Made by a program: the position numbers and the translations under genes. 64,000 nt of DNA from Crambe crambe. Lineage: Eukaryota > Porifera > Demospongiae > Poecilosclerida > Crambeidae. The notes under the pieces are model-generated. The model saw only the letters and a program-made list of their open reading frames with translations, was not told the DNA's origin and did no database searches. Within the stretch, counting starts at the first letter, position 1. Every line of letters begins with the position of its first letter. This document shows positions 14,554-56,152 of this stretch, in pieces. Location: NCBI GenBank assembly GCA_963924555.1, contig OZ004597.1:1816404-1880403 (forward strand), read 5' to 3'.

Positions 14554-17500
14554 CTATTTCTTAGTGAGAAACGGCTCTACATAGTTCACTGGGAATAAGC
14601 CAGTGGTCCCACTGTCCAGCATACCACAATAGAAGCCCCCTTCTTCTCCTTTCTCGATGAACATCAGAGTATCTCCCACGGAAAAACTAAGCTCGGCCTC
14701 AGACCTTGCCACATAATCCTTTATGGCTCTGTAGAAGTTAGTCGGAGACTGTGAGGTGTGGTGGCCATTGCTGACTGGTTCAGAAGAAGGTGTTTCCACA
14801 GGTTTTGAGTTTGACTTGCCATCAGTTTGTTCTGTTCTAATGTCTTTGGGACTTGATGTAACAGGAGTTCTTGTGGTCTCAGTTGTGCCTGGTTTTGATG
14901 TAAGAGATGGTTTCGATGTAAGAGATGGTTTTGATGGTTTAGATGTAAGAGAGGGTTTTGGTGCTAATGGAGGCTTTGGTTTTGTGGCAGGGTGTCCATT
15001 TTCTGTAGTCACAGGAGGGGGAGGCTTTGATGGAATAGTGCTACTTTTGCGACGTTCAGGTTCAGGTTTCGGTACTGGATTAGGCTCCACTTTGGAATTC
15101 TCGGATCTTTTAGTGTCCCGAGAAGCTGATTTAATGCGAGTACCAGGTGAGTGTGAAGGTCGAGGGGGAGGTATTGCAGAAACAGTCTTATCAGGACCTG
15201 CCATTTTCATTTCATCATGAGATGCTGTTAGTTGAGGCGGCCTCTGAGGCGGTGGTTGTTTTTGAGTTTCAGAAGAGCCGGGATCTTTAACTGCTGGAGG
15301 ATTGGGTGGTCTGGATGGAGAAGGCCTGGCCATTTCCTGTGCAGTGGGGTCTGCTAGTACAGCTTCACTGATCCCTGATGTGCTGGACTTCTTATAACGA
15401 GGCTTCGGCACAGGTGAGTTGCTTTCATCAGGTGCAGTCAGAGGAGTGGTCACATCTGCAGTAGTTTTGCCGACAGAGGTCCGTTTAGGCGGCTGAGATG
15501 GCCTGGGCGGTGGTTTAAACACATCGTCATCTTTTGCAGTGTCCTTCTTTGAGTCTCGCCTCACCATTCTCTTTAGTGAGCTCATCAGCTTACTCCCTCT
15601 GGACTCAAATGGCTTCCCTGCAGGTGGTGGAGTAGAATCTTTGCTTTGAGGTGGCACTTTAGCTTCTTCTGACTTGGGAGACTTTCTAGTTGCAAGAGAC
15701 GTGGGTTTAGCAGGCTTAGAAGAAGATTCTGTAGTTGATACGATACTCGATGGCCGAGGGGGCGGTGGTCGCTTAGGAGGGGCCATCTTTGAAGTATCTC
15801 GACTTCCAAGCTTATTACTATTCTCTGTTGGTCTTTGTATCACTTCTGTTTGTACTCTAGATCGTTTAGCAGGCTCGGGTTTTGGTGTTGACATTAAGCT
15901 ACTGATCCTCTTTGGTGGAGGAGGTCGTGGACCTTTGGGTGAGCCACATGGAGTCAAAGAAACGTCACTTTCAGCTACTGTTTTGACTCTTGGATGAACA
16001 GCACTCACAGAAGTGCTGGGATCTCTTGAACCACCAGGCATTGGTGAAGCATCTGCTGCTGATTGGATGTTATTTGCCAAGGGAGATATCTTCCTTGTGG
16101 GAGGCGGTGGGAGAGGGATGCTTGGTGGGGGAGGAATCATCCGACTGGTTGGTCTCTTTACCTTCTTCATTCTTGCCTTGACTCTCGGGGGAGGTATGGG
16201 AGTTCTAACAGATGGAAGTTCTGGTTTCTTCTCCTCCTCCTTCTTTGGTGGTGTGGATTTGCTGACAACTTTTGGCTCCTCTTTTGCTGATTCAGCAGAT
16301 TTAGAAGCAGCAGCAGCTGCTGCTCTAGCTTCCAACAAGGCAGGGGGAACAGGGGGAGGAGGGCGACGATGGGGCTTGGAGTGCATGTCTATGGCTGTCG
16401 TCCTCCGCTTTTGCTGCTTGCCAGGAGGTTTAGTGGCAGACACACCAACTGCAGCAGGTTTGGGATTAAGTGATACAGATTCGGAGACTGTATCTCCTTT
16501 ATTTGTCACAGGTGCATCAGATGGTACTGTTTCTGCACTTCCAGCAGCGTCTCCTCCACTTGTTATCGGCACAGTAGATGGTGAGGAAGCCTCTTTCTTA
16601 TTTAAGGAATCTTCATTCTTGATCTCTACCTTTTCAGCAGGTGACTCAGCTGGTGTAGCTCTCGGCATTTGCGGTGAGGGTTGAGACTCTTCAAGTATTG
16701 TAAAAGGATGATTAGTAGTTCCTGGAGGAGGGGGTGGGGCTCGTCTTTTTCCTCTGGCAGGTGCCGATTGTCGTCTCTGAGCATGCTTGACAGGTTTTGG
16801 CTTGGGTTGGGGTTTTCCCTCAAGTAGAGGAATCTGTGAAAGAGTATAAAACACACTTATAAGGAGTTCAAAGGTCATAAATAATAATATACATATTCAA
16901 TATTTAGTTTGATGGTAGACTTTCCTACCTTATCTTCCTTGGGGGAAAGAATTGGTTCTGCAGCAGGTTCATTCTGTGGAGGAGTGGAAGTCACCTCCTT
17001 CTTTCTTGGAGCAACACTTGGCTTCTCACTCTTTTGCTCCTCTGAGTCTTGATCACTATCCACACGCCAACGCTTCTTAAGGTTGAGAGAGTTTCTCTTG
17101 ATGAGTGCACTGGCCAGCTCACCTGAAGTAGACATATAAACAGCTTAGTGTAGTCATGTGATGGTCACATGACTAAATGTCATGTGATGTTCATACCTTG
17201 TAGACCATCCTCTTTGCTCATGGATTCCAGTCTCAAAGAATCATCTGATTTACCCTCTTCATCATGTTCTGAAGGTCTCTCAGTCTCCACAGGAGACTTG
17301 CTTCGTTCCTTCCTCTTACTGACAGCAGCTGCTAGTTGATCTGCCAGACTGCTGCCACCCTCTTTTGGCACTTCTTGCTTCGGTTGCTCAGTAGTAACAG
17401 GTGCTTCCTCGATCTCCTTTTGACTCTCTCTCACATCTTCAGTAATCTCATCTGCTGCTACAGCTTCTAATGCCGACACTTCAATTATTGGCTGTGCAAA

Positions 17501-20500
17501 AAGATATTTGTATCTGTTAGAACCTGGACTTACTGACTGCATGAACTTGTTAATTACCTTATACCAACTCATGTTAATGTTACATGTTACCCGGTGGAAA
17601 CTTCTAGAACTGTTGTTCCATATGTGTGGTTGTACTTAGCTATTCTCTTGCATTGTTAGTCATCCTTAGTTTTTGTTCATTTGTTAACTAGTCTGATTAG
17701 TCATTGATATATAGTAACTATTTGGTATTTGATGAGCTAATATACAACAGTATCCAAATGAGCAGATGCTAATAAGCTGAAATTTTCAAGTGCCATGTTT
17801 ATAATTTTCACTGTGGCTAGAGCACCGGCAGAAAGTTCCATATAAAATATAGTACTCTTTATCTAGCCCTAGCTCTGCCCTTTACCCATGAGTATAGTAT
17901 TAATTTGATGTATAGTCTGCCGGTATTCTAGACACTCCATATAATTTTATCTTCGTAGTTATGATCCATTTGAAATTACCTTTTACATCTCTAGTTTGTA
18001 TTTTGGTAATCAATTTTTTTTTCCATGCAATTAGTTTTCATAGTGGAAGGTGGACTATGAATACACTTTCTAACTGACTGAGTGAGTGATTGTCATGCAT
18101 GTGTACCTCCACATAGGATTCAGGGAACCAGCCCTGTATTCCTCCCACAGCACCAAACCACCAGCCGTTATCTTGACCCCAGTAGACCAGCACCGAGTCC
18201 CCTTCATTGAAGACAAGGTCTCCTTCTGTCTCTGAATTGTACGAGTACACAGCTCGATATTCCAGAGCCTCAAGGTCACCTCCTACAACAGGAAGTGATC
18301 ACCATTTACATAAGTCAGAACTCAATGACACATTACACCACCTTTATTTGATCAGTAGTAACTCTCTAATAATTTCAAAGATCAGTGCATAAATCTCATA
18401 TTACATTCCATGAATATGTAATGATCCATGTAATCATAGCAACTAGTACTAAGGTCAAAGTACAGATATATAAGCCTAGTCAGCAGAAAATTGAGAATCT
18501 AGTTTTCACAAAATGGGATACCATGGGACACATGTTCTCTCACCTGCAGCCATAGTTTCATCCATGTTCTTTGGCCTTTCCACATCAGCATCAGCAGCAC
18601 TGCTTGCACTTTCAGCTCTCTGTCTGACTTCCTTATCAACTGTCTTGGGGGTCGCTAGGGGTGTCGGGTCCACATACGACTCGGGGAACCAACCAATCAG
18701 GCCTTCATACACCCCCTTCCACCACCCGTTATCCGACTTCTCTATCACCTTAATCACATTCCCCGTCTTGAATACCAGCTCAATTTCAGTCGTTCCATTG
18801 AAATCAAACTTAGCAACATGCCTCTCGGCATGAGGTAACAAGTTATCGCCTATCTCTCCTCCTTCAAGCATGGTCTTTGTCAAAATGAAGTCATTGTCAT
18901 TCTCTTGACTCCCTCCAGACTCCGTGGCCTGCCTATTCTCAATGACCTCATTGTTCCTTAAGCTCTTAGGAGTGTCCGGACAACTACCAGTACCTCCACT
19001 CATACTGCCTTTATCTCTATCTTTATTTTCAATCACAAACACATCATCTCTACAAGAAAAAAAAAGATTATTATTCCTCTCATTCAACCCCCCTCTCTCC
19101 CTCGTCTATATCCCCCGTTTAATCCCCTCTCCCTTGTCTATATCCCCTGTTCAATCCCTCTCCTTCCCTTGCCTATATCCCCTGTTCAGTCCCTCCCTTG
19201 CCTATTATATCTCTATCCTTCTCTTGCCTATATCCCTCTTCCTCCCTTGCCTATATCCCTCTTCCTCCCTTGCCTATGTTCCCTGTTGGTTTACCTTTCT
19301 ACATAAGGTTTGTCAAACTTAGAGACCATCTTTGGAGTGGAATCTATCTCTTTCTTGCTGAATGTGTGAGTTCTCTTTGCTTTCTTGCTCTTGCGTTTTC
19401 CACTGGAGGAGAGATCGGGCGAGTGGTCGGTATCTCGCTTCATGGAGAGAGAAGGGTTAGTAGAACTGAAGGAGCTAGAGGCACCCATGATGGCTGCAGC
19501 TGCTAGTGTGAAACTCTCTGCATAAAAGCAACAATGGTTTGGTTTACAAATCGAGGCAAGAGAAACTACCACAGTTTTAACTAAGAAATCTCTTTTAAAA
19601 TAGATGTTGTCTGATGAATACTCATTTCCTTCTTCTTTAGGGATTTCAAATTATTTTAAATATGCAGCAGCCCTGTTTATTTTGCATACAGAATCACATA
19701 CATCAATGCTTAATGTCATTGCTTACCGTCTTGTTGTTTCTTCTTCTCAGCCTCTCTATCCACGTACACGACATAGGTCTTAGGGAACCACCCACTTTTC
19801 TTCTCCTCCTCAACCTGACCCCGCCACCAACCCCCTCCGTAGGGGGTCTCCTCCAATATCACCCAATCCCCCGGCATCAGGCTCAAGTCATCCTCATTCT
19901 GAGGCTCATACCGATGCAGGACTTTGTAGTTTGGAACTAATGGAGGAGGAAAAGGAAGGAATGTGATATAACCGTACACACAGTGATTATATTACAGGTA
20001 AAATCCCTCTACAGCACATGTGGCACCTCATCAGCTATTCCTAGAGTACATGCACCATGGCATGGAGCTGGGGGCTAAGGGCTAGGGGCATAGGCTCTCA
20101 AGATTAGTTTCACCAGGCTTCCTTATAATGACTATTGGCAGGCTATACATGAAGTGAATATGAGATGTCAAGTCAAGTTTTGATAGTCTGTTGAATATGA
20201 GATGTCAAGTCAAGTTTTGATAGTCTGTTGAATATGAGATGTCAAGTCAAGTTTTGATAGTCTGTTGAATATGAGATGTCAAGTCAAGTTTTGATAGTCT
20301 GTTGTGGTTGCAGGTGCAATCATTAAGGAAGAGTCACACAGCATATTGATCTTGAAAGTACAAGCCAAGTCCACACACACTATCCATACATGATAATGAG
20401 ATAATGCAGAGGACAGACGTATGGAACCATCAAAGGCCCTTCCTCTAGATATTCTAGTCTCTTCTCTCCACCTTCTCGTCCACTAAGAAGCAGTCCTTTT

Positions 20501-23500
20501 CTGACCCCAGAGCAGTGAGTGACCCACTACCAGTACACTGTCGAGTTCAGCACTTACCTCCTAATATCGGCTTTGCAGGTGTCCGCGTTCCCATCTCCAT
20601 GCGGGAGGTTTTGCTGACTTCGTATTTGGAGGAGGACCTTTTCTTCTTCACTAGACACACCACCAGTAGGATCACAACAATGATCAAGATCACCGCCACC
20701 AGTGCTCCCACCACACCTCCAATGATACCACCAACCGGAGAACCTGCACACAATGTAATGTAGCACTCGACATTCATTACATCATAAATTTATATGCAGG
20801 GTCTCTCCATGGGTCAAAATGTCTTAAATTAATATGCAGGGTCTCTCCCACTATGATACCTCTTCTTAATAATGCAAACTCTGGCCTAAAGCCAAAACAC
20901 AATTGTGTGTGGGCACAGCTGCAGGTCAGGGAAATTTCTATAGAGGGGTATAAAGCCTACAGGTATTAATGACCTTATTTGGACCGCTAAAACCACGACG
21001 TCACAAGAAGTTTCCCGGGAACATAGAAGTTTCCCACCATAATACGAGAACATAGAAGTTTCCCACCATAATATGGGAAATATTTTCACTGATAGAGTTT
21101 ACTGTTACTTACTTGTAGGAATGGGAAGAGGGCTGGTCGTTTGTGCTGTGATTGGAGGAGACATTGTTGTTGGTGGTGGTGAGGCTGTTGTTGGTGGTAG
21201 TGACATGGTTGTTGGTGGAGCAGTTGGAGGAGGTACGGCCACTAGGGGAGCTCCATTACACACTGTGACGTCATTCAATACAGTTCCGTCCATTGGTTGG
21301 ATCAGCAGTGCAGGTCGTGGGGAAGAAGACTCTGTCCCAAAGGCAGAGTTCGGGCCCGATAGAGGGAGATTGGGATCGGTGAACACTGCTCTAAATAGTC
21401 CACGAGTCCGGGGGATGTTTAGGGATCCGTGTTTTGAACCAAGGTCCCCCACACTGCAAGCAAGAAGTGAGTCGGTGGAGCACAAGTTTTGGTTGTTGGG
21501 GGAAGGATCCAATATTGGAAGACCATCACAGGAACTAGGGTTAGTGACCACACCATTCCTGAAACTCCAACTGAAAGGAACGAATCCTTCTCCTCCCACT
21601 TCTCTCTTACTTCGAGGGGAATGGTCCTCCATCAAAGACCGCTTCTTTCTTCTACTTGAAGGGGATGCACTTGGTATTGGAGTAAGGGATGAAGGTGTCA
21701 TGGTAACAGCTGGTACTAGAGTTGAGGATGCCATGGGAATAGAGGATTCAAAAGCAAGAACATCCAAGGAGGAAGGAGAAGGAATTGGGGAAGAAAGAGT
21801 ACTTGACACAAGGAGAGGACTATCTTGAGAAGGAGAGGAAGAGGGGGAGAGAGAAGGAGCTTGAAGAGATGAAGTGACTGGGGGCAAAGGAGAAATGTCC
21901 ACAGAGGAAGACGAAGGAACTGGGAGAGATGGAGGAGGAGTAGTGACTGGGGGCAATGGAGATACATTCTGAGAGGGAAAAACAATTGAAGGGGAAGCAG
22001 CCAGAAAGGGTGAGGAGGAAGTTTGGGAAGGGACGGGTGAAGATGGGGGAATGGAGGAGGGGACTGGGAATTGGATACTAGTGGAAGGAGGGGATTCAAG
22101 GGATGCTGAGGATGGTTGAAGTGGAGCTGCTGAGGAAGTGGACAGCTGGGGATCACTGCTAGTTGTTAGAACATCTGGAGGGGGTGGAGTGGGTGGAGGG
22201 GGGTGGAGTGGATGGAGGGGGTGGAGGAATAGGTGTGAATGTAATGTATTAATATTTCAGTGAATTATTTCATACCTTGTATCTCGGAAGTTGTTGTTGG
22301 GAAGAATGAACTAGTCTGGAACGAAGTCTCGGCCGAAGGAGACACACTGGGAAGTTCAGATGTAGTAGTAGGAACCATTACAGATGGCGCCACACTGGAT
22401 GTAGTAGGAGCCATTACCGATGGAGCCATACTGGGAAATGGAGAGGGAGATGGACTGAGAGTTGGAGAAGAAGTGATGAATGGTGACGCCATGATGGAAG
22501 TTGTGGGCTGGGGTGGAAGCAGTAGTTCCATTATGACTTCGAGTTCGACTATGATGGTGGTTGCAGCTGAAGGGTCATTGGCAGGTTGTAACAGAGTCAC
22601 TTCACCTACGATACTGCTCGTGTTTATTGAGTACACCACTCGCATGATTGGTTGAGTGTGTACAATGTTGGCACATACCCGACGAGTCCCAGCTGGATCG
22701 TCCATGTGGATGACTATAGAACGTCCGATAATCCCAAAAGCTCCAAACAGGGGGACATTGGGGTCATAAAAACTTTGAGATATCGTGTCCCGGTTCTGCA
22801 AGCTACCAAACTTGCCACTCAAATCTCCGATCTCATAACCATCACTGGTTATTGGAGGGTTTCTCCCGTAGACCACTTGCAAGGGGTTCCAATGACCCCC
22901 TGCAAAGGTGCCATTGCATCTTTCAGGCATTCCCAGATTAGCTGGTCCGATTGGATACTGATGCACATGATACCCTCCAATCATACGTCTTAGACCTGTC
23001 AAGTTTACGTCTACTCTTGTTTGGTCAAACGGGGACAGTTGCAAAAACCTAATGGAGCCATCAATTCCATCCTGAGAGGTAAAGATTGCCTCAGCCTGTA
23101 GGGGGAAGTACCGTGATATGTTGGCGCAAGCAATCCTTGGTGCTCCTCTGTTGGCTTCATGGATCACAACGGAACGACCGTCAATGGAGAATGGGAGATC
23201 AGTATCAGAGTAAAACTGCTTAATTACTCTGTTCATCACGGAAAAAGGACTTCCTTTACCCGAAAGGTCTCCCACTTCACAGTTGTTTTGATTCATGGGG
23301 TTGCAGAGGTCAGAATATGTACTGGATGAGGCATTAACGCCCCTAGGGTTATAGTGAGGACCAGCTATGCTGCAATCATTCCCGTCTCTATCCAGAGGGC
23401 TTTCATGGACGTGCCAGTTATGTCCTGTTGAATTAACCGAACCTCCTACACTAATCAAATCAGTGTAAACCGATGCAGTGCTGTTATTAGTATGCTGCCG

Positions 23501-24163
23501 AAAATATATACTCCCAGTGAACATGTTTCGGAATGGCGTGAAGAGGATGTTCGCTTGCCCGTCACCGGTGTTTGCTGGATAGCCAATATTGGCACAGGCA
23601 AGGCGGCTGCTGTTGGTATAATGGATGACAATGGAGCGCCCGATGATTGAGTAAATGCCATAGAGGGAAAGAAAACCATCTGTAAAAGTGTATGAACTTG
23701 CAGTATCATTGAGGGGCCCCCATCTGCCACTCAGGTCCCCCAACTCGCACAAACTCTGATTAGCAGCGCAGTTTGCAGTGTAGTTCCCGTCAGAATAGGC
23801 CCCCAGGGGGTCATAGTGTCCACCCGTGATCTCACTCCTACAGGGATTCCGTTTGGCATCGTGAGGGAAGGGATACTGGTGAACGTGCCAAGGAAAAGAG
23901 GAGAAACCAGGAAAGCTGTCCAGACCTGAATTTAACAAACATTATTGCACATTAAGATGACATCAGATCAGATGCTTTCAGAATCTTATACCTGTTAGGT
24001 TAACTCTTATCTCAGTGGGACTCTCGGGATTACTTTGCATGAACCTTATGCTTCCCCTTAGCCCACGCTGGTTGAAGATAGCCGTCACATTGAGCTGGGC
24101 ATGGCAGGGGTGCAGCAGAACGAGGCACAGAGCCATCCAAATGAGATAAACATGCAGAGCCAT
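14554..24163 (-). CDS. Transmembrane copper-only SOD-repeat protein with four cytoplasmic SH3 domains
   Basis: Eleven exons (23992-24163, 22276-23925, 21113-22174, 20558-20743, 19727-19936, 19295-19517, 18544-19049, 18107-18282, 17197-17491, 16929-17122, 14554-16833) join with every phase matching: 2317 residues. Signal peptide 1-22 (ends LLHPCHA). SOD-like domains about 24-172, 182-330 and 333-480 each keep the copper ligands (HVH 71/73, 229/231, 377/379; bridging-type His 94, 248, 402; His 159, 313, 464), the disulfide Cys and an Arg near the C-terminal Cys (SRLAC, PRIAC, TRRVC), but the zinc ligand before GDL is Glu (CELGDL, CEVGDL, YEIGDL). A fourth, degenerate domain (481-527 plus about 803-917) is split by a Ser/Thr/Pro stalk with RRKKR (782-786) and RSKR (795-798). 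TM about 965-993, then KKKR. SH3 domains about 1026-1083, 1245-1300, 1340-1395, 2260-2313; proline-rich 1560-2255. Copper-only SOD-repeat proteins are a known class; I know of none with TM plus SH3 domains. Confidence 0.88.
19090..19290. repeat. Pyrimidine-rich minisatellite in intron
   Basis: Irregular repeats of units such as CTTGCCTATATCCCCTGTTC fill most of the intron between exons 6 and 7 of the SOD-SH3 gene. Confidence 0.8.
20157..20304. repeat. 37-bp tandem repeat, four exact units
   Basis: 148 bp made of four essentially identical 37-bp units (starting AATATGAGATGTCAAGTCAA) in the intron between the TM exon and the first SH3 exon of the SOD-SH3 gene. Units abut without spacers. Confidence 0.95.
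21019..21073. repeat. Short direct repeat in intron
   Basis: Two near-identical 26-bp copies beginning GAACATAGAAGTTTCCCACC lie in the intron between the stalk exon and the TM exon. A related pair with ATGCAGGGTCTCTCC lies near 20795 and 20835. Confidence 0.75.
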
Positions 24164-51862: not shown

Positions 51863-54800
51863 TTATACTTTTTCTTCAGTTGGCTGCTTCATAACGAAAA
51901 CAGTTTTCATCTCTCCTTTACCTTTGACGATCACTTTGTGGACGGTGTGAGTGACGTACGGACCCAATTTCTCCAGACAACCCTCAGGCATGTGGATCTT
52001 GTTGATAGCACCAGTGGTGACCATACGGCTGGCAACATTCACTGTGTCCCCCCAGATGTCGTACAGCATCTTCCGGCTTCCAACCACACCTGACGTAATT
52101 GGACCGTAATTGAACCCAATTTGCATCTCAAAGACAAAGTGAGTGATTTTGTGGTTCACCACTTCCAATACTTCGACAAGTTGGTGGCCGAATTTGATCA
52201 AATCTAGAAGATGTGAAACAGAATTACACTCCTCACTTGGGGACATATTGAGACCAGAGGCTGCCATGTAGGTGCTACCAATCGTCTTGATCTTTTCCAC
52301 GCTGCAGAACTCTGGCCGCTCCAAGAGCATGTCAAACTCGGAGATGATGATGTTAAGCAACCTGAGAGAGTCTTCTCCTTTGTTCTCGTCTTTCTGAAGA
52401 AAGTGCCGAAAGTTCACAATGGAGGCGAACATGACTCCGACGCACTCATGGTTCTGCGAGAACTTGCCAGTTGTTCTCAGCTTGTAGGCAACGTGGGGCG
52501 GGATGATATTGAACAGCAACCACTCTGCTTGGACTTTACGCTGTTTTGTGAAACGACGTCGAGCCGATGCCTCTATTCGACCAATAAAACTGAGTCGTAC
52601 GGACACCTCAGACATTCTATTGACGACTGCCAATAGGATGAGAATGAGGAGCAGTAGAATAATAGCCTCAGGGGCAACGTGTCTGGTGTAGTAGGTGGTA
52701 AAGTAAGTGGAGATGGGTGGCTCTGTACCAGGGGTCCGAAATTCACCGGCATACGATGGAGTCCCAATTGTAAACGGAAAAGAGGATACAGTTGGGGGAG
52801 GAGTTGTTACAGGGTCGGTGAGATTGAAGTTGAAGTCTTTGATGCAGAAGGTAAGATGCACAGCCACTAACATGATCACGCTCAGCGAGCCAGTGAGGAG
52901 ACCACCAACAAACTTCACGATGTGACTCACCTCCATAAAAGTGATATTGTTAACTAGAATCACTATGGTGATGAAGAAGGTCATCTGAACATGAGCCAAC
53001 TCAGCAAACTGCCTCGTCACGAAACTCTCCTGGTTGTTGGAAGTGATTAGATCCATGGGTTGACACTGCGTTATCGTGACACACACGATTGCCACAGGGT
53101 AGTAAATGAAAAAGAGTGCAACGAGAGAACGGACATACCAATTGATGATTAGAGTGGCAAATTTGGCAAAACCTTGTGGGAAACGGTGAGGTGAGAAAAC
53201 AGCAAAGACAAGAATCAGGACTGGGATTTCGACACAGAGGCCGATTAGGAAAATCCCCAGCCACGCAGGCCATATTTTTCTGAATGAGCCATCAGTATTG
53301 AGGCATACAGCACTGGCCACCATGATCAAGAGGAACATGACAAAGAGAGTTATGGTGTCCAGCATGTAACTGAGGCGAGTGATGCGGTAACCCAGCTCCA
53401 TTTCTGTAAGTTCCCCATTGGACCCGTCGTCCAAATTCCGCCCGTAATTCCGGTAAGTTGACTCCCAGTCTGGGTCACGGAAGTTGAGCGAGAGCAAGTG
53501 AAGCTGGGAGTCGAAGTATGTATCAAAGTTGATGTTCTGCTCGTCCATATGCTTCACTATGTCCTCATCCATATCTGTATTCTGTTGCTCTTCCTCTCCC
53601 TGGAGGGGGACAGCCAAATCAGCGTAAGAGGTACACCTCTGCAATTGAGTCTGGATGTCCATGATAGAAGAGGAAGCGTGGATATCATTCGGAACTCTCC
53701 GAACTGAAGTAGCCTTCTGCTTCTTTCGCCACAGACAGAAAAAATCGGTGATACTCACTCCCTTGGTGGGGGATGTTGATTCATTCCTACAACCCAAGTA
53801 CTCCACCTTTTCTTCCTTCTCTGATTGGTGCACAGTATCAATCACGGCTATTTTCTTCTTCCACTGAAGACCAGAAACTCCAAAACTTTGGGGTCGATTC
53901 TTCTTTTCTGTCACATAATAGAGTTCCAGATCACACAATTCTGGTTCAGCTCTTTGGACGATTGACTCTGTGACATACGATCCCAACAAGCAGGAGTGCG
54001 TTGCCTTGGATATGAGGACATGGCCAGGAATGCTGACGGACTCAATTTGGTTGGCTAAGGTGACATCTTTTGACCACACATCAAACTTGAACCGTTTTGT
54101 GCCCATGACTCCACAGAAGACAGAGCCAGTGTGAATACCAACACGCATTTCAATTGGGAACTTCGTTCGTATGCGGTACTCTTCCAAAGCTTTGATGATG
54201 GCCAGACCCATGTTGACACAGTTATCAGCATGGTCCTTTTCCGGTTCTGGGCAGCCCGACACACAGAAATAGCAATCACCAAGTGTACTTATCTTCTCAC
54301 ACTTATACTTTGTGACGAGATCATCAAACATGGAAAAAACAGTGTTCAAGATTCCAACAAGTGCGGCAGCTGAGAGGGTGCTGGAGAACTTTGTGAAATC
54401 AACGATATCGGCAAATAAGATGGTGACATTGTCCATGCTGCAGATGTTGAAGGGCGCCATAATAGACTGATAAACTGGATCCAGACTCCCTTCATTAACA
54501 GCTCTCTGTTTGATCATAAACGCCATTTGGACGTGGACATTGAGTAGACCATCTGCAAAGTCCTTTGGCATCATTGATAGGATTGTTTTCTCTTCAAGAT
54601 CACGCTCCAAGTCCAACGCTTTCTCAGAGAGGACGCACTGGGCAATCTTCCAAAAAGTAGCGACTTGCCTAACTTGCAGCAAATAGGCCATTGTGATGCC
54701 AGCCAAAATGAGGCAAATGTACAGAAGTACACGACCTATTGTTGAACTGGTGTAGACCTTTTTGGGAAAAGTATTTGCTTTCTCGAACATTGTGACTCCC

Positions 54801-55903
54801 ACGATGCACTCGAGAATGATGAGGTAGATTACACTCAATGCCACTGAGAGCCATATGGGCAGACGTGAAAGCGTGAAGACCACCAAAATGAAAACGGCGG
54901 TGACAGCAAATTGAGCCACAAAGGACATGGTCAGGAACCCCCTCATATTCCCTTCATATTTGATAGCCAGGGCAAGTGCAAAAGAGACACACATGAGAAT
55001 GAGGGAAAAGAGGATTGATAGAGGAAGAGCAAATCTGGCATAGAGGCGTGTGAATGTTATGATCAAGAATATGCCCACCAGTACAAGTAGGATCACTCCA
55101 CCTATAACGTACCAAATGGAATACTTCACACTGAAGATGGCGAGCTCGTTGTTGAGTGATTCCGTCATTATATCTGCAAGGAAGGATGGTGTGAAGGGAA
55201 TGTTGACCGAGAAAACAACGATCCATAGCAGAGTGAACATCCCAATGAGAACCAAAGAGACACGAAATCGTTTACGGAGAAACTCGATCACAGTTTTCTT
55301 TAGTTGCCTCTCAAGCACTTCTGAATTCAAATTGGGACTCCACCAATATCTGGAGGTATTCAAGCATTTCCCACCGGATTGTGGAGCCACGTCTTCACTG
55401 GAACAGTCTGTCGTGGTACTCTTTTGAATCCAACTGGGATCCTCTTCTAAATATCCATGACCCGAGTGAGAGCACGAGCCTCTTCTCTGTCCAATGTTGG
55501 CACCAGCATACAGCTGCTCAAGATCCATTGGATTTACATTATGTAAGTTGATCTCACATGTACCGTCTTCTTGGTTGATGTGAAGTCCTCCATCTTGGTT
55601 TATTGTGTCGACAACAGAAGGCCTTCTCAAGTCGCTCAAAGGGGTACCGATCATTGGCACGTTGGTGACCGGTCTCCTTCGAAAATTCAGATTGAGGCCC
55701 CCAACTGTGGTATGGGAGGGTGGATTGGTCCCACTACTACCCTCGTTCAGACTCTTACCGTAGTCGCTGCCCATTCCAGAGTCTTGCGAGTCGACGTTGC
55801 TATCAGAGCCAGTCGAGGCATCAGCGGGACTGTTGTCCCTGAGAGATAAGCTGTCTGCATCTGGATCAGCCCTGGCAATAGTATTGTCGACAGCGGCGGA
55901 CAT
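51863..55903 (-). CDS. Transmembrane adenylate cyclase, ADCY9-like,single exon
   Basis: Makes cAMP from ATP at the plasma membrane. The ATG at 55903 opens an uninterrupted 1346-codon frame (the frame continues upstream without an ATG). Cytosolic N-terminus about 1-210; first six-helix bundle (SLVLIGMFTLLWIVVFSV to LLYICLILAGITMAYLLQV); C1 catalytic domain with ILFADIVDFTKFSS and STLGDCYFCVSGCPEP (two metal Asp) and RFKFDVWSKDVTLANQIE, closest by eye to ADCY9; second six-helix bundle with a large Thr/Pro extracellular loop (VTTPPPTVSSFPF); C2 domain with GVMFASIVNF, VEKIKTIGSTYMAASGL (adenine-site Lys) and YDIWGDTVNVASRM. C1 has Asp where most cyclases have Gly in the VGFT motif. The lack of introns among intron-rich neighbours suggests retroposition or intron loss. 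Confidence 0.93.
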   Translation of the reverse strand: MSAAVDNTIARADPDADSLSLRDNSPADASTGSDSNVDSQDSGMGSDYGKSLNEGSSGTNPPSHTTVGGLNLNFRRRPVTNVPMIGTPLSDLRRPSVVDTINQDGGLHINQEDGTCEINLHNVNPMDLEQLYAGANIGQRRGSCSHSGHGYLEEDPSWIQKSTTTDCSSEDVAPQSGGKCLNTSRYWWSPNLNSEVLERQLKKTVIEFLRKRFRVSLVLIGMFTLLWIVVFSVNIPFTPSFLADIMTESLNNELAIFSVKYSIWYVIGGVILLVLVGIFLIITFTRLYARFALPLSILFSLILMCVSFALALAIKYEGNMRGFLTMSFVAQFAVTAVFILVVFTLSRLPIWLSVALSVIYLIILECIVGVTMFEKANTFPKKVYTSSTIGRVLLYICLILAGITMAYLLQVRQVATFWKIAQCVLSEKALDLERDLEEKTILSMMPKDFADGLLNVHVQMAFMIKQRAVNEGSLDPVYQSIMAPFNICSMDNVTILFADIVDFTKFSSTLSAAALVGILNTVFSMFDDLVTKYKCEKISTLGDCYFCVSGCPEPEKDHADNCVNMGLAIIKALEEYRIRTKFPIEMRVGIHTGSVFCGVMGTKRFKFDVWSKDVTLANQIESVSIPGHVLISKATHSCLLGSYVTESIVQRAEPELCDLELYYVTEKKNRPQSFGVSGLQWKKKIAVIDTVHQSEKEEKVEYLGCRNESTSPTKGVSITDFFCLWRKKQKATSVRRVPNDIHASSSIMDIQTQLQRCTSYADLAVPLQGEEEQQNTDMDEDIVKHMDEQNINFDTYFDSQLHLLSLNFRDPDWESTYRNYGRNLDDGSNGELTEMELGYRITRLSYMLDTITLFVMFLLIMVASAVCLNTDGSFRKIWPAWLGIFLIGLCVEIPVLILVFAVFSPHRFPQGFAKFATLIINWYVRSLVALFFIYYPVAIVCVTITQCQPMDLITSNNQESFVTRQFAELAHVQMTFFITIVILVNNITFMEVSHIVKFVGGLLTGSLSVIMLVAVHLTFCIKDFNFNLTDPVTTPPPTVSSFPFTIGTPSYAGEFRTPGTEPPISTYFTTYYTRHVAPEAIILLLLILILLAVVNRMSEVSVRLSFIGRIEASARRRFTKQRKVQAEWLLFNIIPPHVAYKLRTTGKFSQNHECVGVMFASIVNFRHFLQKDENKGEDSLRLLNIIISEFDMLLERPEFCSVEKIKTIGSTYMAASGLNMSPSEECNSVSHLLDLIKFGHQLVEVLEVVNHKITHFVFEMQIGFNYGPITSGVVGSRKMLYDIWGDTVNVASRMVTTGAINKIHMPEGCLEKLGPYVTHTVHKVIVKGKGEMKTVFVMKQPTEEKV

Positions 55904-56152
55904 TGTTGGACATCCAGCAACTTCTGACTTGTCACCGCACTCTCGAGTCTTTTTGTACAATCATTTTCTTTTTAAGTTGTTTGTACTGTGGTATGACATC
56001 CGGCCTGCCTTCAAAGGCTTCAAATGTAATTTGAAAAGCCATAATACCACAGCTGTTATTATTATGTACATGTATTATTGCATAATGCATACACCACATT
56101 ATGTTCAGTTGTACATGATTAAAAAATCTAATAAACACATGCGGACTGCTTT

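Follow-up and report, generated by a model that had tools for sequence, protein, structure and literature searches.

Gene organization

The 64,000-nucleotide stretch of Crambe crambe DNA analysed here (assembly GCA_963924555.1, contig OZ004597.1, positions 1,816,404 to 1,880,403; hereafter the window, numbered from its first letter) carries on its minus strand a gene that appears to place extracellular copper-only superoxide dismutase (SOD) repeats and a cytoplasmic SH3 array on one polypeptide, joined through a single transmembrane (TM) helix. All features of this gene described below lie on the minus strand. The gene model was rebuilt by script from the genomic sequence alone, following the exons proposed in a preliminary description of the locus. 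Eleven exons with matching phases and a total of 6954 nucleotides had been proposed, and exactly this coding sequence was recovered in frame between 24163 and 14554, with a single terminal stop (TAG, 14554-14556) and a predicted product of 2317 amino acids. Exons 1-6 occupy 24163-23992, 23925-22276, 22174-21113, 20743-20558, 19936-19727 and 19517-19295, and exons 7-11 occupy 19049-18544, 18282-18107, 17491-17197, 17122-16929 and 16833-14554. The introns are 66-621 nucleotides long, all ten have GT-AG borders, and their phases chain throughout (phase 1 for introns 1-5, then 2, 1, 0, 1 and 0), with phase-1 introns on both sides of each of exons 2-5. Splice sites were scored as percentiles among all GT or AG dinucleotides of that strand using generic weights; on this scale eight of the ten donors and seven of the ten acceptors rank above the 96th percentile. 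The gene region contains zero N bases, and an assembly gap was rejected on this ground.

Extracellular Cu-only SOD repeats

A predicted signal peptide (residues 1-22, exon 1, 24098-24163), whose cleavage site was placed by eye and which is the second-best hydrophobic stretch of the protein, is followed by three SOD repeats. D1 covers residues 23-175 (23573-24097) and is interrupted in its beta3-beta4 loop by intron 1 (23991-23926, phase 1), D2 covers residues 181-331 (23105-23557) and D3 covers residues 333-482 (22652-23101). Pfam assigned Sod_Cu to three stretches (E 2.5e-38). Each repeat retains four copper ligands in the translation (H71, H73, H94 and H159 in D1; H229, H231, H248 and H313 in D2; H377, H379, H402 and H464 in D3), in agreement with the intact sites that had been proposed behind a signal peptide. 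Also kept in each of D1-D3, together with the HxH pair, the His of GxHxxP and the His of GRSxVIH, are the ExGDLSG motif, both disulfide cysteines and the Arg preceding the last Cys. The spacing from the last His to this Cys is 9 residues in D1 and 11 in both D2 and D3. In alignment with SOD5, the Glu of ExGDLSG falls on the Glu called E110 in the review PMC13017621.

Among solved structures in the PDB, the best relative of D1-D3 is the Cu-only SOD5 of Candida albicans (E 1.2e-12 by phmmer and 1.4e-20 by the repeat profile), and a low-confidence model of D3 also matched SOD5 best. A SOD1 two-domain heterodimer chain ranked second in the profile search and fifth in phmmer, with single-domain Cu/Zn SODs after it. 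Alignment to SOD5 demonstrated that D1-D3 combine the copper ligands with the Glu/Asp pair and lack the zinc ligands and the long loop VII, the combination that defines the Cu-only class. A search of IMG/VR for relatives of D1-D3 returned four pattern stretches, with no relative among them. In GTDB genomes, 16 pattern stretches were found and one had a tblastn match of only 14 residues; it lies inside a bacterial open reading frame (L001 4525-5436) that looks transporter-like by eye, in another frame by coordinates, and was taken as chance.

A degenerate fourth repeat split by an insert

Judged from its sequence, the region between D3 and the membrane includes a fourth, copper-less SOD repeat (D4, residues 483-525 plus 803-918) that the preliminary description had overlooked. 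The first half, D4a (residues 483-525, 22523-22651), corresponds to beta1-beta3. It carries GEVTLLQ in register, an instance of the motif G[E/S][I/V]x[F/L]xQ located 23 residues past CANI, a spacing identical to that between D2 and D3. Pairwise comparison of D4a with the first half of each intact repeat gave z scores of 5.1 (D1), 2.7 (D2) and 2.4 (D3), reached by 0, 5 and 7 of 500 shuffles, respectively. The second half, D4b (residues 803-918, 21243-21590), resumes at beta4 and has none of the copper ligands; its four cysteines match D1/D2 positions (e.g. CxxGD), and a CSVGDL motif is present. Against the D1-D3 profile D4b scored 16.7 bits, compared with 3.4 bits for the best shuffle (789 scored of 1000 made). 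When the two halves were joined, z scores against D1, D2 and D3 were 6.5, 4.2 and 5.4, and no shuffle reached the observed score (200 each); against D1 the score was 44 and the best of 200 shuffles reached -9. The cysteines predicted to pair in the disulfides of the four repeats are 86/168 (D1), 242/324 (D2), 394/475 (D3) and 823/913 (D4). Structure prediction was of low confidence in this region: the AlphaFold model of D4b has a pLDDT of 40, and in a weak model of D3 plus D4a (pLDDT 51.6), for which SOD5 was the best PDB fold match, D4a repeats the first two strands. A PDB sequence search with D4b alone returned no SOD and one unrelated weak match.

The two halves of D4 are separated by a 277-residue insert (residues 526-802, 21591-22522) that consists of 28.2% Ser, 19.9% Pro and 9.7% Thr (58% together), contains no Cys and holds intron 2 (22275-22175, phase 1). 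A mucin-like stalk had been described here; the Ser/Thr/Pro-rich stretch is present, although most of it is this insert inside a SOD repeat and not a plain stalk. Since intron 1 of D1 and intron 2 of D4 fall in the same beta3-beta4 loop and share phase 1, their positions suggest that the insert may have grown around an old intron. Near its end the insert has two furin-like sites identified by motif scan, RRKKR (residues 782-786, 21639-21653) and RSKR (residues 795-798, 21603-21614). Neither D4a nor the insert contains a Cys, and a disulfide between the D4 halves is not possible. A cut at the furin-like sites would consequently leave two chains held non-covalently, since all four D4 cysteines are in D4b.

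Membrane topology and the joint between the two halves of the gene

The best TM candidate of the protein (residues 975-993) has a mean hydropathy of 3.82 and is directly followed by KKKR, as had been noted. Translation, hydropathy and the splice scan together place the helix (residues 968-993, 20726-20649) and KKKR (20648-20637) in exon 4 (20558-20743), a symmetric 1-1 exon. N-glycosylation sequons are concentrated at the N-terminal end: residues 23-482 have 13, compared with a shuffle mean of 5.3 (reached by 0 of 500 shuffles), while residues 483-964 have 2 (shuffle mean 3.4) and the 1322 cytoplasmic residues have 1 (mean 6.2). This contrast fits SOD repeats that face the exterior and SH3 domains that lie within the cell.

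The passage from the TM exon into the first SH3 exon is the critical point of the gene model. The exon 4 donor has the top score of the ten donors (99.8th percentile) and the exon 5 acceptor lies at the 99.3rd percentile. In the frame of exon 5, intron 4 contains many stops and no ATG that continues into exon 5, and an SH3-only gene beginning in intron 4 was rejected on these grounds. Neither AATAAA nor ATTAAA was found in intron 4. Poly-A words weigh little either way, because none was found past the stop codon of the gene, from 14553 to 13800, either. The earlier proposal that SOD repeats, TM helix and SH3 domains belong to one protein is supported as far as the splice sites of the joint and the content of intron 4 go, and at this level there is good support for a link between the SOD and SH3 halves of the gene. 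Intron 4 also contains a perfect 37-nucleotide tandem repeat (20155-20304, 4.1 copies, 100% match).

Cytoplasmic SH3 array and proline-rich linker

Pfam identified three SH3 stretches in the piece covering exons 5-10 and one in exon 11; the piece covering exons 3-4 gave 11 weak Pfam matches, all under the cut-offs. SH3-1 (residues 1024-1081, exon 5, 19764-19936) starts at an exon edge, SH3-2 (residues 1243-1295, 18668-18826) lies within exon 7, and SH3-3 (residues 1344-1395, exon 8, 18107-18262) ends at an exon edge. SH3-4 (residues 2257-2314, 14566-14739), identified by Pfam, occupies the extreme C-terminus. Between SH3-3 and SH3-4 runs a linker recognized by composition (residues 1396-2254, exons 9-11 including introns 9 and 10, 14746-17491), with 17.7% Pro. 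Four SH3 domains with a proline-rich region of roughly 700 residues had been expected; the four domains stand, and the linker is longer, at about 860 residues.

The closest match of SH3-1 is intersectin-1, with CD2AP second, third and fifth. In a search with the first three domains together, the leading stretch is SH3-2 for Grb2 and, next, for SORBS1 and p47phox chains; it is SH3-3 for Acanthamoeba myosin IB and, next, for intersectin-2. SH3-4 is closest to PACSIN2, followed by p47phox. Among themselves SH3-2 and SH3-3 are 43% identical, and the remaining SH3 pairs share 28-38%. Because the four domains match different families, the array points to no single parent family. PX, EH, SH2 and F-BAR domains had no match when the cytoplasmic pieces were scanned with Pfam; the scan returned SH3 families only, and a motif scan of the tail found no YxN or NPxY. 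PPPP occurs eight times (overlapping count) in the cytoplasmic part, compared with 0.37 in shuffles, and none of the 500 shuffles attained this count. P.[PA]..R is moderately enriched (6 versus 1.9, reached by 6 of 500).

Relation to known proteins

CSRP/SOD4 proteins, named CUSR in fish and SOD4 in amphibians, are the natural point of comparison. SOD4 is described as a protein of animals, choanoflagellates and Filasterea that starts with a signal peptide, carries a TM helix at its C-terminus and is required for tadpole tail regeneration (PMC10416458). CSRPs have been reported from, among others, a sea sponge (PMC7730656), and oyster multi-domain SODs are treated in PMC9118643. The CSRP array has at least four SOD-fold repeats according to the review PMC13017621, and vertebrate SOD4 has three domains (PMC10416458). 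The Crambe ectodomain shows three SOD repeats by Pfam and a degenerate fourth by profile and pairwise tests, with positions for an intramolecular disulfide in each. Like the family it has a signal peptide, short linkers, the Glu/Asp pair in place of the zinc ligands, a short loop VII, the conserved disulfide and a C-terminal TM helix as reported for SOD4 (PMC10416458). Members of the family are secreted, GPI (glycosylphosphatidylinositol)-anchored or extracellular with a C-terminal TM helix, and the signal peptide, sequon contrast and TM helix predict the last of these arrangements here. On these features the ectodomain belongs with the animal CSRP/SOD4 proteins. It differs from them in that the first repeat keeps its copper ligands and the last lacks them, that this last repeat is split by an insert with furin-like sites, and that a proline-rich region with four SH3 domains follows the TM helix. 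Fungal SOD5 heads the solved structures in sequence similarity and, as far as a weak model shows, in fold. It shares the copper site and the Glu/Asp pair; its class is single-domain, GPI-anchored or secreted, and has no TM-SH3 part.

The tail resembles SH3 scaffolds (intersectin, CD2AP/CIN85, Grb2, PACSIN and p47phox/Tks) in having several SH3 domains and long proline-rich linkers, and differs from them in being joined to a TM helix and an extracellular enzyme and in lacking the PX, EH, SH2 and F-BAR domains searched for. A C-terminal SH3 domain after a long linker recalls Tks4. Although p47phox SH3 domains rank high for SH3-2 and SH3-4, the absence of a PX match in Pfam led us to reject the tail as an oxidase organizer of the p47phox/Tks type; NADPH-oxidase organizers are treated in PMC2121648. 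CD2AP/CIN85 has three N-terminal SH3 domains, a proline-rich region and a C-terminal coiled coil; here CD2AP ranks high for SH3-1, the other SH3 domains match other families best, and the C-terminus is an SH3 domain. Receptors split by furin and held non-covalently include Notch, and GAIN and SEA domains invite a similar comparison. The Crambe protein is like such receptors in having basic, cleavage-type motifs in a folded juxtamembrane repeat whose halves cannot be disulfide-linked; it is unlike them in that the fold is that of a SOD and cleavage is predicted only, and we claim no sequence relation.

The preliminary description knew of no protein with this architecture. TM-anchored SOD repeats are not new in themselves, being already described for SOD4; the pairing of SOD with SH3 was not found described in the open-licence PMC literature, a scope outside which the founding 2018 CSRP paper and supplements fall. 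The word SH3 is absent from the main text of PMC13017621, PMC7730656 and PMC9118643, and was not searched for in PMC10416458. Within the open-licence literature, the novel part would be the SH3 array, and the gene as a whole would be a new combination of known modules.

Other features of the window

Further upstream on the same strand, tandem duplicated blocks (26499-50016) contain Ig-domain receptor-like genes. Aligned pairs longer than 1 kb are 74-92% identical, one open reading frame has an I-set match in Pfam, and near-identical tyrosine-containing tails (NQAYESV..., PIYE.PAL) recur at four places. Their appearance is that of a young family of receptors, with a possible role in recognition. 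Also on the minus strand, a 1365-codon stop-to-stop frame (51866-55960) in which two catalytic stretches of nucleotide cyclases were recognized (E 7.6e-98) is possibly a single-exon adenylyl-cyclase-like gene or a retrocopy. The gene content of the window also includes HAND/SLIDE as in ISWI, fasciclin and Ig domains. Together with the short introns and the density of genes, this content would suit an early-branching animal, for instance a demosponge.

Discussion

We consider it rather probable that the locus encodes a fused, enzymatically active membrane SOD that is positioned by its own scaffold. Such a protein would span the plasma membrane once and belong to the CSRP/SOD4 family of animals, with D1-D3 outside, the copper-less D4 next to the membrane and the SH3/proline-rich tail inside. 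The outer repeats would dismute cell-surface superoxide, for example from NADPH oxidases, into H2O2. The insert might be cut by furin in the secretory pathway, after which the SOD ectodomain could be either shed or retained non-covalently via the split D4 barrel. Through its SH3/proline-rich tail the enzyme may be clustered with partners linked to actin, endocytosis or oxidases, and superoxide would then be converted at its source. As to the origin of the gene, phase-1 introns may have allowed an ectodomain of SOD repeats to be joined to an SH3-scaffold gene, the TM exon serving as the link. That the protein signals across the membrane, or senses copper or superoxide, would go a step beyond this proposal and is conjectural.

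Several observations weigh against a fused and scaffold-placed enzyme. The SOD-SH3 fusion is known from the genomic sequence of one locus alone, and the splice weights are generic rather than specific to the organism, with weaker scores on that scale for donors 1 and 8 (88.8 and 88.2) and for the acceptors numbered 2, 4 and 9 (81.7, 91.9 and 88.8 percentile). The first half of D4 is the least secure part of the ectodomain: D4a alone scored 1.2 bits against the D1-D3 profile, under the best shuffle at 4.1 (716 scored shuffles); its motif recurred in 2 of 20000 shuffles, yet was composed with D4a in view; and a sliding scan put the D4a window first of 299 (score 69), but windows internal to D4b scored 63, which makes the scan weak alone. 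The furin-like sites are motif matches only, and one further copy of R.[KR]R lies on the cytoplasmic side (residue 1585). In the tail, SH3-4 lacks the usual Trp, the conserved Trp pair reading FY, and the different families that the four SH3 domains match best leave their partners unassigned. Class I and class II SH3-ligand motifs are not enriched (67 and 220 of 500 composition shuffles reach the count), and cis binding of the SH3 domains is for this reason unsupported.

The alternative that survives best, to which we would give slightly less than an even chance, accepts the fused protein but takes its ectodomain for no more than an antioxidant at the cell surface, whether shed or anchored, and its tail for an ordinary endocytic or actin adaptor, with no information passing across the membrane. 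It overlaps with the scaffold-placed enzyme that we prefer, so that the two confidences need not add up to one. The known CSRP/SOD4 proteins are extracellular and one from oyster has been shown to have SOD activity (PMC13017621); the restriction of the Pfam matches to SH3 families and the lack of YxN and NPxY in the tail would also suit a plain antioxidant. What it leaves unexplained is why an antioxidant keeps a tail of about 1320 residues with four SH3 domains, and why furin-like sites lie within a degenerate SOD repeat.

It is unlikely that the locus instead comprises two transcription units or alternative isoforms, with a secreted or TM-anchored SOD-repeat protein ending after exon 4, an SH3 scaffold transcribed from an internal promoter, and the chained frames a coincidence. 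Read-through of the exon 4 donor would reach a stop after Gly-Lys-Cys, and introns 5 and 7 contain AATAAA words. Intron 3 has an in-frame ATG at 20777, 11 codons before the exon 4 acceptor and open across the splice site, with a TATA-like word close by at 20794; it is a possible start of a SOD-less TM and SH3 isoform. In exon 6, the in-frame codon of M1104 (19488) is flanked by A at -3 and G at +4. Translation from it would give an N-terminus MGxxxS (GASSS after Met), which we take to be a myristoylation pattern, and a lipid-modified isoform with the SH3 part only might start here. Set against two units are the high ranks of the exon 4 donor and exon 5 acceptor and an intron 4 with neither a poly-A word nor an in-frame ATG into exon 5.

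The chances are poorer still for an ectodomain that serves mainly as a binding or adhesion receptor instead of an enzyme, as proposed for copper-less CSRPs. Copper-less CSRPs and dominin have been reported (PMC13017621), and D4 lacks the copper site. In D1-D3 not one of the 12 copper ligands is missing, and the Glu/Asp pair, both disulfide cysteines and the Arg before the last Cys are kept as well; such conservation would not be expected without selection for copper chemistry. We regard as least probable, and mention only as speculation, a new class of two-chain redox receptor in which the furin-cut D4 halves would form a non-covalent switch like that of Notch or GAIN domains and in which superoxide, copper load or pull would alter this switch and thereby the SH3 scaffold, turning a superoxide-removing enzyme into a sensor coupled to actin or NADPH oxidase.

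If the fused transcript is real, a scaffold-placed membrane SOD of this kind would unite an enzyme that converts extracellular superoxide to H2O2 and a cytoplasmic SH3 scaffold on one polypeptide. It would provide a handle on how cells place, and perhaps read, the chemistry of reactive oxygen species at their surface, and on the membrane role of the enigmatic CSRP/SOD4 family, and its split copper-less repeat would represent a new use of the SOD fold.

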